From assembly GCF_000716675.1 (NCBI RefSeq), contig NZ_JNXT01000001.1, positions 248,001-312,000 of the forward strand: a DNA stretch of 64,000 bases, read 5' to 3'. The DNA comes from Streptomyces alboflavus. GTDB taxonomy: Bacteria > Actinomycetota > Actinomycetes > Streptomycetales > Streptomycetaceae. Shown here in pieces: positions 3,785-63,550 of this stretch; positions within the stretch are counted from its first letter, which is position 1, and each line of letters begins with the position of its first letter. The notes beneath the pieces are model-generated. The model did not search any database. It was given only the letters and a program-made list of their open reading frames with translations, and was not told where the DNA came from. A program made the position numbers and the translations under genes.

Positions 3785-5578
3785 GTGGACGAAAGCGGCG
3801 GCAGCGGCAGGCCGCAGTCCGACGAGCACGCGCCCGCCCAGGCGGAAGACGCGTCCGGCCAGGCGGAGACCGCGCCTGGCGGGGCGGCGAGTGCGTCCGG
3901 CCAGGCGGAGACCGCGCCCGGCAGCGCGGCGAGCGCGTCCGACGAGGTGCCGAGCGCGGCTGTGCGGGCGGAGAGCGCGCCCGTCCAGGCGGGGGAGGGG
4001 CAGGCCCGGGTCCGGCCCGATGGCGACAGCACCCCGGACCGTCCCGACAGCACCCCGGACCGTGCCGACGGGGCACCCGCCCGTGCCGACGGCGCACCCG
4101 CCCGTCCCGACGGGGCACCCGGCCGTGCCGACGGCGAGCCCGAAGCGGCGCCGAGCGCGGCACGCCCTGCGGCCGCCGACCCCGCGGCCGCCGACCCCGC
4201 AGCCCCCGTCGGCCCCGACACTCCCACCCGCGGCGAGCCCCGACCTCAGGCCCCCACCGCCCCCGTATCCATCCGCAAGCCCGACCCCGGCGACCGGCCC
4301 ACCCCGGCCAGGGCCCCCGCGCCGACCCCCGAACGGGCCCACGCGCACCACACCGGTGAACCGCTCAAGGGCGCCAAGGACGGCGGGCGGGGCAAGGGCG
4401 ACAAGGGGGACGCGGACGAGCCGAAGAACCCCGGCGGGGGCCTCCTCATGGGGCGCCCCTTCGGCGTACCCGTCTACGTCGCGCCCAGCTGGTTCCTCGT
4501 CGCCGCGCTGATCACCTGGGTGTTCGGCGGCCAGCTCGACCGCGTCCTGCCCGAGCTCGGCAACGCCCGCTATCTCGTGTCACTGTTCTTCGCCGTCGCG
4601 TTCTACGCCTCGGTACTCGTGCACGAGCTGGCCCACACCGTCGCCGCGCTCCGCTTCAAGCTCCCCGTGCGCCGCATCCAGCTCCAGTTCTTCGGCGGCG
4701 TCAGCGAGATCGAGAAGGAGAGCGAGACCCCCGGCCGCGAGTTCGTCCTCGCCTTCGTCGGACCCCTGCTCTCGCTCGTCCTCGCGGGTGTGTTCTACGT
4801 GGGCATGCGTGCCGTGGAACCCGGCACCGTGCCCGGCGTCCTGCTCGCCGGACTGATGATCTCCAACCTGATCGTCGCCGCGTTCAACCTCCTGCCCGGC
4901 CTCCCGCTCGACGGCGGCCGCATGCTCCGCGCCGTCGTCTGGAAGATCACCGGCAAACCCATGAGCGGCACGATCGCCGCCGCCTGGGTCGGCCGCGCGC
5001 TCGCCATCTCCGTCCTCATCGGCCTGCCGCTCCTCAACCAGTCCGGCGCCCTCGGCGGCGAGACCCAGGACATCGGCGGCATGGACACGGTCACCGACGC
5101 CCTGCTCGCCGCGATCCTCGCCGCCATCATCTGGACCGGGGCGGGCAACAGCCTGCGCATGGCCCGGCTGCGCGAGCACCTGCCCGAGCTGCGGGCCCGC
5201 GCGCTCACCCGCCGTGCCGTCCCCGTGGAGACCGACACCCCGCTGTCGGAGGCCCTGCGCCGCGCCAACGCCGCGGGTGCCCGCGCCCTGGTCGTGGTGG
5301 ACACCGACGGCGACCCGCTGTCCGTGGTCCGGGAGGCCGCCATCGTCGGCGTACCGGAACACCGCCGTCCCTGGGTCACCGTCGGCGGCCTCGCCCAGGA
5401 CATCACCGAAGGCATGCGTGTCCCCGCCGACCTCTCGGGGGAGGAGCTCCTGGACCGGCTGCGGGCCACCCCGGCGACCGAGTACCTGGTCGTCGAGACC
5501 TCCGGCGAGATCTACGGCGTCCTGTCCGCCGCCGACGTCGAGCGCGCCTTCGTCAACGCCATGGCCCGGCCCAGCTGA
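3785..5578 (+). CDS. Site-2-type M50 intramembrane metalloprotease with CBS region
   Basis: A 597-residue zinc protease of the M50 family. The first 210 or so residues are a disordered Ala/Pro/Asp/Glu-rich tail. The membrane domain follows, with the zinc motif HELAH at residues 280-284 and the third ligand region LPLDGGR (Asp376). The end (about 475-590) reads as a CBS pair facing the cytosol (VPVETDTPLSEAL, VLSAADV). Such proteases cut membrane-bound anti-sigma factors or regulators, and CBS domains usually sense nucleotides. The chosen start is GTG at 3785, preceded by GAGGGGA. An in-frame ATG at 3725 is the alternative. It is divergent from the RecB-like gene and 68 bp upstream of trmI. 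The long disordered N-terminus is unusual for the family. Substrate unknown. Confidence 0.88.
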   Translation: MDESGGSGRPQSDEHAPAQAEDASGQAETAPGGAASASGQAETAPGSAASASDEVPSAAVRAESAPVQAGEGQARVRPDGDSTPDRPDSTPDRADGAPARADGAPARPDGAPGRADGEPEAAPSAARPAAADPAAADPAAPVGPDTPTRGEPRPQAPTAPVSIRKPDPGDRPTPARAPAPTPERAHAHHTGEPLKGAKDGGRGKGDKGDADEPKNPGGGLLMGRPFGVPVYVAPSWFLVAALITWVFGGQLDRVLPELGNARYLVSLFFAVAFYASVLVHELAHTVAALRFKLPVRRIQLQFFGGVSEIEKESETPGREFVLAFVGPLLSLVLAGVFYVGMRAVEPGTVPGVLLAGLMISNLIVAAFNLLPGLPLDGGRMLRAVVWKITGKPMSGTIAAAWVGRALAISVLIGLPLLNQSGALGGETQDIGGMDTVTDALLAAILAAIIWTGAGNSLRMARLREHLPELRARALTRRAVPVETDTPLSEALRRANAAGARALVVVDTDGDPLSVVREAAIVGVPEHRRPWVTVGGLAQDITEGMRVPADLSGEELLDRLRATPATEYLVVETSGEIYGVLSAADVERAFVNAMARPS

Positions 5579-61355: not shown

Positions 61356-61742
61356 TCAGCCGAAGACGGGACCCGTGTACTTCTCGCCGGGACCCTGACC
61401 GGGCTCGTCCGGCACCAGGGACGCCTCGCGGAACGCCAGCTGCAGCGACTTCAGGCCGTCCCGCAGCGGCGCCGCGTGGAAGGAGCTGATCTCCGTCGCG
61501 CTCGCGTCCATCAGACCGGCGAGCGCCTGGATCAGCTTGCGGGCCTCGTCCAGGTCCTTGTGGGCCTCGCCCTCCTCGGCGAGGCCCAGGTTCACCGCCG
61601 CCGCGCTCATCAGGTGCACCGCGACCGTCGTGATCACCTCGACCGCGGGAACGTCCGCGATGTCGCGGGTCATGGCGTCGAAGCCGGGGCTCTGGGGTGC
61701 GTCGTGGGGGGCGGGGGTCGCCGCGGGACTCGTGTCACTCAT
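61356..61742 (-). CDS. DUF1844 family small protein
   Basis: A 128-residue protein with the DUF1844 core: VPAVEVITTVAVHLMSAAAV, NLGLAEEG and DLDEARKLIQALAGLMDAS. Short N- and C-terminal tails are Pro-rich. It contains two predicted helices and no catalytic motif. ATG 61742 is the start. It is divergent from infC, and the two share a promoter region with a symmetrical GGTTAGC/GCTAACC element. Function unknown. Confidence 0.85.
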   Translation of the reverse strand: MSDTSPAATPAPHDAPQSPGFDAMTRDIADVPAVEVITTVAVHLMSAAAVNLGLAEEGEAHKDLDEARKLIQALAGLMDASATEISSFHAAPLRDGLKSLQLAFREASLVPDEPGQGPGEKYTGPVFG

Positions 61743-61770
61743 GCCCCTCACCCTAGAGCCGCGTCCCGGC

Positions 61771-61801
61771 GGTTAGCCCCACCCCCCGGGACCTGCTAAC
61801 C
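61771..61801. promoter_or_regulatory. Symmetrical promoter-like element between DUF1844 gene and infC
   Basis: GGTTAGC (61771-61777) and its complement GCTAACC (61795-61801) lie 17 bases apart. On the plus strand TTAGCC and TAACCT, 18 bases apart, could serve as -35 and -10; the mirror image exists on the minus strand. It could equally be an operator. Confidence 0.45.
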
Positions 61802-61814
61802 TTGTGTAACGACC

Positions 61815-62019
61815 GGCTGGACACCCGCGTGCCAACGCAAGCGTCCGGCCCACAAGTGGAGGCTCCGATCTCCCACCTGGCCGCTCCATGGAGCGGCGGG
61901 TCACCGGTCAGGCGGACACCGCGCAGCGCGTGATGCACCGCCCGATGCGCCCCGTGATCACCACGGAGGTGCTCCGGTATTCGTTGGAGCCCCTTCTGTG
62001 ATCAGTCGGGGCATTTTTT
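61815..62019 (+). ncRNA. infC operon leader with terminator/antiterminator
   Basis: The leader has a hairpin at 61815-61850 (8-bp stem) and another at 61881-61896 (6 bp, CATG loop). A terminator follows: GCCCC 61989-61993 with GGGGC 62008-62012, an inner CTG/CAG helix and T6 at 62014-62019. Upstream GCCCC (61949-61953) and TGATCA (61955-61960) can pair with 62008-62012 and 61999-62004. That would break the terminator, while GCTCC 61971-61975 pairs with GGAGC 61986-61990. This is the layout of a transcription attenuator. In Bacillus the same operon is controlled by L20 through its leader. The ligand here is not known. Confidence 0.72.
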
Positions 62020-62101
62020 GTGTTCCGGCGCGGTTGGTCGAGAAAACAGACGTAACGCGGCTGTCCGCCAGACGGTCGCGTGGTGCTACCGAGGAGGATC
62101 C

Positions 62102-62761
62102 ATCAGCGCCGAGCCCCGCATCAACGACCGGATTCGCGTTCCCGAGGTGCGACTTGTCGGTCCCAGCGGCGAGCAGGTCGGGATTGTCCCGCTTGCCAAG
62201 GCCCTGGAGCTTGCGCAGGAGTACGACCTGGACCTGGTCGAGGTCGCGGCGAACGCCCGTCCGCCCGTGTGCAAGCTCATGGACTACGGGAAGTTCAAGT
62301 ACGAGTCGGCCATGAAGGCCCGTGAGGCGCGCAAGAACCAGGCGCACACGGTCATCAAGGAGATGAAGCTCCGGCCGAAGATCGACCCGCACGACTACGA
62401 CACCAAGAAGGGTCACGTCGTCCGGTTCCTCAAGCAGGGCGACAAGGTCAAGATCACGATCATGTTCCGTGGTCGCGAGCAGTCCCGTCCGGAGCTCGGC
62501 TTCCGGCTGCTGCAGCGGCTCGCGGAGGACGTCCAGGAGCTCGGGTTCATCGAGTCGAACCCGAAGCAGGACGGCCGAAACATGATCATGGTCCTCGGTC
62601 CGCACAAGAAGAAGACCGAGGCGATGGCCGAGGCCCGTGAGGCCCAGGCGGCTCGCAAGGCGGACGCGAAGGCCAACCCCGGCAAGTCGCAGAACGCCGC
62701 CGAGGAGGAGCTTTCCGAAGCCCCCGCCGAGGCCCCGGCCGAGGCTCCCGCCGAGGCCTGA
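62102..62761 (+). CDS. infC: Translation initiation factor IF-3 (apparent AUC start)
   Basis: A 219-residue IF-3 that keeps ribosomal subunits apart and checks initiator tRNA and start codon. The N-terminal domain begins at [17 protein letters not shown], with linker [19 protein letters not shown] and C-terminal domain [18 protein letters not shown]. An Ala/Glu-rich tail ([10 protein letters not shown]) follows. The only reading that starts beside the strong ribosome site GAGGAGG (62091-62097) uses ATC at 62102; no in-frame ATG, GTG or TTG lies near. Rare starts (AUU, AUC) are known for infC in other bacteria and allow IF-3 to limit its own synthesis. It heads the infC-rpmI-rplT operon. Confidence 0.93.
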
Positions 62762-62867: not shown

Positions 62868-63062
62868 ATGCCGAAGAACAAGACGCACAGCGGTGCCAAG
62901 AAGCGCTTCAAGGTCACCGGCTCCGGCAAGGTGCTCCGCGAGCGCGCCGGCAAGCGCCACCTGCTCGAGCACAAGTCGTCCCGCCTGACGCGCCGCCTCA
63001 GCGGCAACGCCGAGATGGCCCCGGGTGACACCGCCAAGATCAAGAAGATGCTGGGCATCTGA
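62868..63062 (+). CDS. rpmI: 50S ribosomal protein L35
   Basis: A 64-residue, very basic ribosomal protein with the L35 pattern: [20 protein letters not shown] at the N-terminus and [14 protein letters not shown] in the middle. Length is normal. It is the second gene of the infC operon, 106 bp after infC, with GAGGAGAG before ATG 62868. Confidence 0.98.
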
Positions 63063-63166: not shown

Positions 63167-63550
63167 GTGGCACGCGTCAAGCGGGCAGTCAACGCCCACA
63201 AGAAGCGTCGGGCGATCCTCGAAGCGGCCAGCGGCTACCGCGGCCAGCGTTCGCGCCTGTACCGCAAGGCGAAGGAGCAGGTCACCCACTCCCTCGTCTA
63301 CAACTACAACGACCGCAAGAAGCGCAAGGGCGACTTCCGTCAGCTGTGGATCCAGCGCATCAACGCCGCTGCCCGCGCCAACGGCATCACCTACAACCGC
63401 TTCATCCAGGGTCTGAAGGCCGCCAACATCGAGGTGGACCGCAAGATCCTCGCCGAGCTGGCCGTGAACGACGCCAACGCGTTCGCCGCGCTGGTCGAGG
63501 TCGCGCAGAAGGCCCTGCCGTCCGACGTCAACGCCCCCAAGGCCGCGTGA
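63167..63550 (+). CDS. rplT: 50S ribosomal protein L20
   Basis: A 127-residue ribosomal protein needed for early assembly of the large subunit. The pattern is clear: [40 protein letters not shown] and [16 protein letters not shown]. In Bacillus and E. coli L20 also represses its operon by binding leader RNA. GTG 63167 follows AAGGAG. It is the last gene of the operon, ending before a 17-bp hairpin. Confidence 0.98.

Follow-up and report, generated by a model that had tools for sequence, protein, structure and literature searches.

A probable L20-responsive transcription attenuator, related to the Firmicutes L20 leader, upstream of infC-rpmI-rplT in Streptomyces alboflavus

The window analyzed here, a stretch of 64,000 nucleotides from S. 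alboflavus (contig NZ_JNXT01000001.1, positions 248,001 to 312,000), contains infC, rpmI and rplT in that order, recognized by the Pfam families IF3_N/IF3_C, Ribosomal_L35p and Ribosomal_L20. The leader upstream lies between this operon, the same one that follows the L20_leader family of Rfam, and a divergent DUF1844 gene (61356-61751, minus strand) whose start and that of the leader RNA are separated by about 57 nt. The features to which we refer, numbered from the first letter of the window, are as follows.

61808-62019, plus strand: whole leader RNA, read here as attenuated; full-length match to Rfam RF02830 (Scr1601)
61811-61816, plus strand: P1 5' strand GACCGG, predicted to close the 5' domain by pairing with 61904-61909 (Rfam structure line, letters)
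61904-61909, plus strand: P1 3' strand CCGGUC (Rfam structure line, letters)
61817-61848, plus strand: predicted P2 hairpin, 61817-61822 with 61843-61848, variable in sequence (letters, MFE fold)
61854-61856, plus strand: AAG in the conserved core, counterpart of the one that precedes the first L20_leader hairpin (invariant columns of alignment A2)
61858-61873, plus strand: P3 hairpin GGAG/CUCC, 61858-61861 with 61870-61873, putative equivalent of the first L20_leader hairpin (covariation, RF00558 co-registration)
61861-61869, plus strand: predicted antiterminator strand 1, GGCUCCGAU, in P3 and its loop (duplex tests, truncated folds)
61875-61901, plus strand: P4 ACCUG/CGGGU, 61875-61879 with 61897-61901, putative equivalent of the second L20_leader helix (covariation, letters)
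61881-61886 with 61891-61896, plus strand: P4 inner helix (letters)
61947-61972, plus strand: hairpin GCGCCCCGUG..CACGGAGGUGC of the antiterminated state, predicted to sequester the 5' arm of the compound terminator (constrained and truncated folds)
61949-62012, plus strand: compound terminator hairpin (RNAfold, Rfam structure line, covariation within the genus)
61983-61991, plus strand: predicted antiterminator strand 2, GUUGGAGCC, overlapping the terminator 5' arm (MFE folds for transcript ends 61991, 61998 and 62005)
61989-62012, plus strand: local terminator hairpin named in the initial annotation (-13.1 kcal/mol)
62014-62019, plus strand: terminator U tract, T6 (letters)
62091-62098, plus strand: infC Shine-Dalgarno stretch GAGGAGGA (letters)
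62102-62761, plus strand: infC (IF3), AUC start codon (Pfam IF3_N, IF3_C)
62868-63062, plus strand: rpmI (L35; Pfam PF01632)
63167-63550, plus strand: rplT (L20), the proposed effector (Pfam PF00453)

A core of the form AAG-N-GGAG..CUCC-C-ACC-YG..CRGGU is common to the infC leaders of other families of the class. Loci L013 and L188, in which no IF3 start was recognized, were dropped, and L103-L113 are duplicates of genus genomes. A search pattern for this core found 176 of 179 leaders, including all 38 outside Streptomycetaceae, against 15 of 895 shuffles; the three leaders that it missed have the core with a longer loop. Covariation was assessed in alignment A2, for which 53 diverse stretches were prepared and 49 aligned, with L119, L122, L125 and L128 omitted as near-duplicates or misfits and the ends of L072, L144, L175, L187, L190 and L192 set by eye. 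In the 15 pairs of the core, 93.7% of cells were paired and double changes were seen in nine pairs and 38 cells, against 4.6 pairs and 10.4 cells after shuffling; within P3, both sides had changed in four of the five pairs. Because the core sequences were picked with the motif pattern, AAG and CACC are in part invariant by construction. When the full 5' domain was aligned (A1, 48 sequences, MAFFT and RNAalifold), the only helices recovered were P3 and, in its outer part, P4, because P1 and P2 align badly. An automatic search for P1 by helix score gave unreliable picks and was dropped, so that P1 and P2 rest on the Rfam structure and on single-sequence folds.

A covariance model built from the 49 core sequences (R1), all of them from the class Actinomycetes and none from Firmicutes, matched 34 of 396 genomes of the phylum at E <= 0.001, with one match each. 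These comprise all 12 genomes of the genus, 18 of the 26 other genomes of the class (30 of 38 for the class as a whole) and four of other classes; the eight class genomes that were missed all belong to one family. Every one of the 34 matches lies before infC, as judged by compared positions in 32 cases and by reading the loci in two. At the criterion used, 15 of 39 leaders of other classes were without the core, and these were excluded from the terminator, duplex and ensemble-fold tests described below. Upstream of infC in four loci of other classes (L226, L229, L242 and L259), a frame for a cold-shock-type protein (KWFSNEKG.., by eye) was seen; three of these leaders are without the core.

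The initial annotation had pointed to Rfam's L20_leader model (RF00558) as a check on the leader. This model gives no match in 61500-62400 at E <= 10, none in the strain's own genome, where its gathering score is not reached, and none in the 20 leaders of the class that were scanned, while recovering its controls from B. subtilis, T. maritima and L. lactis. Likewise, 20 leaders outside Streptomycetaceae had no match to any Rfam family at the cut-offs, and in a second set of 20 leaders, partly the same, the only matches that bear on the leader were weak ones to Scr1601 (L177 and L179). Across the phylum, 55 of the 381 genomes had an RF00558 match at E <= 0.001, which in one of them was over the cut-off, and all 55 belong to classes other than that of the window; at this threshold, G019, G239 and G295 have two matches per genome. 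Rfam's L20_leader model misses this branch in the window's class.

The two models meet in other classes. Among 41 infC loci from those classes, four of which had been chosen as R1 matches (L217, L241, L256 and L261), R1 gave E <= 1 in 24, with 13 of these below 0.01. When 20 such loci were scanned with all of Rfam, L20_leader appeared at E <= 1 in 11, once over the cut-off (L255, 65.6 bits). In seven loci matched by both models (L255, L249, L236, L260, L248, L245 and L232), the two matches start two bases apart, at R1 E-values of 0.09-0.13 in three of the seven and 0.04-0.05 in two. A pattern scan of named genomes for the L20 leader yielded at least 80 loci, from which 50 contigs with Firmicutes-type labels (384036 bases) were taken for R1. 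At E <= 10, the model gave seven matches, all of them at the site of the L20-leader pattern and on the same strand, with best E-values of 4.9e-4 and 1.3e-3, and it was silent in the other 43; in six of the seven matched loci, RF00558 is over its cut-off. A crude motif test for IF3, in which a miss does not mean absence, picked up infC downstream of the pattern in 30 of the 80 matches listed. The L20-leader pattern followed by the IF3 motif was also seen in L282, L294 and L316, labeled WOR-3, Hydrogenedentes and Acetofilamentum, which reflects either a wider spread or a binning error.

Common descent with L20_leader is thus supported at the level of sequence profiles, by the R1 matches and the shared register. 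As in L20_leader, the first hairpin is preceded by AAG and followed by C-[A/G]CC, judging from the letters, the covariation, the RF00558 consensus and the description in PMC6097659, and we infer that these letters correspond to the H1/H2 junction that binds L20 in B. subtilis. We take the leader to be a branch of the L20 leader that is homologous but far diverged and that, in the computable features tested, acts like L20_leader; we have not filed it as a member of RF00558, since the curated gathering score is not reached. The core homology also favors L20 as the likely signal, the first of those suggested in the initial annotation. In the strain's own 23S rRNA (L193), AAGCGGGA..ACUCCCACC (4386-4421, near the 3' end) and CUAAGUGGGAAAGG (2529-2534, in the region presumed to bind L20) both resemble the leader core. 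An AAGUGG lies in that presumed L20-binding region, and ribosomal mimicry by the leader core is at most suggestive.

An attenuator of the same design could sense IF3, L35 or the state of ribosome assembly in place of L20. IF3 and L35 are encoded in the operon, and an AUC start codon implies that IF3 controls the infC mRNA (PMC5472188); however, IF3 control at the start codon requires no 5' domain, and the junction conserved here is the one known from the L20 leader, where mutations relieve repression in B. subtilis according to PMC6097659. We regard such another signal as improbable and continue with L20 as the putative effector.

The whole leader is present in Rfam under another name. Scr1601 (RF02830) matches 61808-62019 over model positions 1-209 with 167.4 bits (gathering score 100, E 6.7e-35), which is the only match in the genome and ends precisely at 62019, the end of the U tract. 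Within the genus, 148 of 150 genomes carry a match, as do all 147 of the 147 genomes with a completeness of 90% or more and a contamination of 5% or less. In the family Streptomycetaceae, matches were found in 113 of 121 genomes from 16 of 17 genera, and 64 of them are over the cut-off. Across the phylum, 13 of 396 genomes had a match, and the 12 over the cut-off are the strain's own and 11 others of the genus; the weak match in G020, where infC is on another contig, was taken as chance. The statement in the initial annotation that no such actinobacterial leader had been described is thus correct only in part: the RNA is a described sRNA family, while the titles listed in our search of the open-licence literature included no actinobacterial L20 or infC attenuator and no such role for Scr1601. 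Expression of scr1601 was confirmed in S. coelicolor, as stated in PMC8388888 with reference to Vockenhuber et al., and in the same source the S. ambofaciens homologue is placed among UTRs and not kept as an sRNA. Twelve earlier sRNAs look like 5' UTRs according to PMC3765725, in the main text of which "1601" does not occur. Term-seq in S. clavuligerus gave 117 premature ends, with known units including ribosomal protein leader attenuation (PMC8269248; infC is not named in that text).

Scr1601 could alternatively be what Rfam's type assignment says, a trans-acting sRNA with its own promoter and terminator that ends before infC by chance. Its confirmed expression would fit this reading, as would the several promoters that infC is said to have in Streptomyces (PMC5472188), any of which, if it lay within the leader, would also bypass the switch. 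Our promoter scan found none in 20 kb, that of the leader itself included, and hence is uninformative on a separate sRNA promoter. Nevertheless, the treatment of the S. ambofaciens homologue, the position of the core before infC in all 34 phylum matches and its similarity to the L20 leader speak against a free-standing sRNA, to which we give a slimmer chance than to an alternative signal, and Scr1601 is better read as a product of the infC leader.

The letters from which the initial annotation had drawn its attenuator are correct one by one: GCCCC at 61949-61953, TGATCA at 61955-61960 and again at 61999-62004, GGGGC at 62008-62012, T6 at 62014-62019, GCUCC at 61971-61975 opposite GGAGC at 61986-61990, and GCCCC at 61989-61993. 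They had been arranged into two competing states, an antiterminator pairing 61949-61960 with 61999-62012 against the local hairpin 61989-62012, with a third helix (61971-61975/61986-61990) blocking the 5' arm of the terminator. On folding of 61949-62019 with RNAfold, however, the pairings from 61949, 61955 and 61971 all fall into one compound hairpin, the supposed blocking helix included. This hairpin has -37.8 kcal/mol without its tail, against -13.1 kcal/mol for the local hairpin alone. With the tail, it reaches -39.5 kcal/mol (z -6.6; equaled by 0 of 200 shuffles) and abuts AUUUUUU; the structure line of Rfam likewise shows it. Since the strand at 61949/61955 closes this long hairpin ending at T6, it belongs to the terminator, and GCCCC 61949 with TGATCA 61955 was rejected as an antiterminator because it forms the base of the stronger terminator. 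The attenuator as first drawn is accordingly very unlikely. Its pairings exist and are kept in 58 aligned genus sequences, but its antiterminator helix ends at the U tract and should itself terminate, it requires the terminator's own 3' arm in order to form, and in 75-nt MFE folds that arm is paired locally in 12 of 105 leaders of the genus and 15 of 32 from other genera of the family.

Covariation was also assessed within the genus. Usable stretches were obtained from 97 of 105 leaders by cutting at an anchor resembling GCCCC and an end resembling GGGGC, leaders without the anchor (L043 and L044 among them) being excluded, and 58 were aligned (A3). In these 58 Streptomyces sequences, 93.1% of the cells of the compound hairpin were paired and 17 were double-changed, where shuffling gave 7.4, whereas the local terminator was 75.4% paired and did not exceed shuffles; the GCCCC/GGGGC columns hardly vary, in part because of the anchor-based cutting, and leave that pairing undecided. 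For the hairpin 61952-61956/61962-61966, inside 61947-61972, six pairs were counted; 95.1% of their cells were paired and 15 showed double changes, where shuffles gave 1.6. The T tract had been called rare in this genome, and T6 is indeed unique in the window, yet dinucleotide shuffles of the window hold 0.65 +/- 0.91 such tracts, with at least one in 43 of 100, so that its rarity is not significant. The compound hairpin is absent from the output of a generic terminator scan. Across core-bearing leaders, 55 of 63 had a best hairpin-plus-T score of -24 or lower (median -29.8), whereas 57 of 378 dinucleotide shuffles did (median -18.6), and the leaders thus share with L20_leader a Rho-independent terminator between the core and infC. 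The terminator finder picks wrong hairpins in some leaders (e.g., L001, L010, L144, L161, L177 and L179); for the duplex and ensemble tests, the L001 terminator was set by hand to the Rfam-defined hairpin and the other mispicks were kept as found.

A likelier partner for the terminator lies in P3. In the window, 61861-61869 pairs with 61983-61991 in the MFE structures of transcripts ending at 61991, 61998 and 62005, and the fold flips from antiterminator to terminator once 62008-62012 are added, the terminator fold being better by 1.9 kcal/mol in the transcript ending at 62012 and by 3.1 kcal/mol in that ending at 62019. The antiterminated fold locks GCCCC 61949 into the hairpin 61947-61972. 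Duplexes of the P3 segment with the 5' arm of the terminator were examined in 41 leaders, one per family, from which those with a terminator score above -22.9 had been dropped. True pairs averaged -15.6 kcal/mol against -12.6 kcal/mol for swapped pairs, a difference reached in 0 of 20000 permutations, and the effect was found in the class (23 leaders, p 0.00035) and in other classes (18 leaders, 0 of 20000) as well as against shuffled arms (0 of 300 in the class and other classes alike). Within Streptomycetaceae, where relatives are not independent, the swap effect was smaller (p 0.0002 for 122 unique pairs, p 0.008 for 37 distinct P3 sequences). In ensemble folds of transcripts cut before the terminator 3' arm, at least three P3-arm pairs were expected in 20 of 41 leaders and in 55 of 200 swapped controls. 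Full-length transcripts reached that number in 4 of 41 leaders, and a clean switch between truncated folds was seen in 16 of 41.

The terminator excess, the P3-arm complementarity and the folds of the window together support an attenuator before infC-rpmI-rplT, as the initial annotation had proposed; the antiterminator that it named was wrong, and both the sensor and the likelier partner are to be sought upstream, some 80-140 nt from the interval that it had marked. The modeled antiterminator would involve the hairpin of the L20 site, and its agreement with L20_leader in this respect, reached by computation and less marked in the ensemble folds, assumes that B. subtilis uses this hairpin. Attenuation through a ribosome on a short leader ORF ending near 62001 is scarcely credible, since the window does offer an in-frame ATG at 61933 or 61945 that runs to TGA at 61999-62001 but 52 of 101 genus leaders are without an ATG/GTG ORF ending within 40 nt before the terminator end, the lengths scatter in the others, and no conserved short ORF overlapping the switch was found among these 101.

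Translation of infC may add a second layer. The Shine-Dalgarno stretch is followed by ATC at 62102, at the conserved infC start, while the first ordinary start in the infC frame in the ORF list is a TTG at 62018, inside the U tract. ATC is the reported start codon of Streptomyces infC (PMC5472188), and gene callers will consequently misplace the start. By fixed spacing, infC starts with ATC in 137 of 138 Streptomycetaceae; the same holds for 37 of 38 other leaders of the class, the last of which has ATT. L066 also has ATC, at a shifted place; in this single genome, the infC start region carries a short tandem duplication. Control by IF3 through the AUC codon, which has been described for infC, would act on the mRNA that results from read-through. 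Directly before the Shine-Dalgarno stretch, a GC-rich inverted stretch conserved in Streptomyces (ACGCGGCTGTC..GACGGTCGCGT, 62053-62079) is a possible translational control hairpin, for which a quick alifold of 92 sequences gave no support.

We consider it likely that the leader is an L20-responsive transcription attenuator that is homologous to the L20 leader of Firmicutes and has diverged from it. Homology, a conserved core, a terminator, its complementarity to P3 and the near balance of two folds were established computationally, and from these we infer L20 binding, the direction of control and termination in the strain. By default, the P3 strand 61861-61869 would pair with 61983-61991 during leader synthesis and thereby occupy the terminator 5' arm, the hairpin 61947-61972 would occupy the 5' strand of the compound stem, and transcription would reach infC-rpmI-rplT. 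Excess free L20 could bind where P3 and P4 join, at AAG/C-ACC, and keep P3 closed; L20 is proposed in this role because its presumed junction stays constant here. With P3 held closed, no antiterminator would form, the 61949-62012 hairpin would fold before the U tract, and the polymerase would stop near 62019, leaving the short RNA known as Scr1601. In B. subtilis, L20 binding stabilizes a terminator in the leader of the same operon, according to PMC10931766.

Previous surveys describe a narrower distribution. PMC6097659 states that the L20 RNA of the B. subtilis type occurs in Firmicutes alone, and PMC3766115, in which L20 leaders are limited to Firmicutes and Thermotogales, suggests re-examining lineages seemingly without such motifs. 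New leaders of ribosomal protein genes, including actinobacterial ones for L17 and L31, are described in PMC7247131, whose main text does not contain "infC" or "bL20", and intrinsic terminators are few in some actinobacteria according to PMC2965389. An independent hint comes from M. tuberculosis, in which a 326-nt infC 5' UTR is reported to be more abundant than the coding part, with a ratio of 2.6 during exponential growth that rises to 4.9 in stationary phase (PMC3207917). On balance, it is somewhat more probable than otherwise that the L20 leader is ancient, having probably existed before Firmicutes and Actinomycetota split and perhaps in more phyla, as the same pattern before the IF3 motif in contigs labeled WOR-3 and Hydrogenedentes would suggest. 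It may have been masked in GC-rich genomes because the letters of its hairpin changed and its product was cataloged as a separate sRNA family. An L20-responsive infC leader would explain an orphan Rfam sRNA, and the related elements before infC in many other actinobacteria make it a concrete, widespread and apparently overlooked element by which these bacteria could balance IF3, L35 and L20.

Among known systems, the leader is closest to L20_leader (RF00558), with which it shares the operon, an AAG-N-hairpin-C-[A/G]CC core, a second helix closing with GG and then a terminator, and a terminator 5' arm complementary to the first hairpin. In contrast to that family, its hairpin reads GGAG/CUCC and not AGAAGC/GCUUCU, it adds P1 and P2 around the core, its terminator is compound and GC-rich, and it scores far below the cut-off. 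It is a full-length member of Scr1601 (RF02830), although we read as the attenuated product of the infC leader what Rfam types as an sRNA. Actinobacterial leader-peptide attenuators place a terminator and an antiterminator ahead of an operon, an arrangement that the leader shares, whereas it is without a conserved leader ORF. Finally, the L20 operator of rpmI-rplT in E. coli responds to the same repressor protein; there, however, repression is translational and uses a pseudoknot and an irregular hairpin, with infC outside L20 control, as described in PMC10931766, whereas the leader in the window has a transcription terminator before infC.
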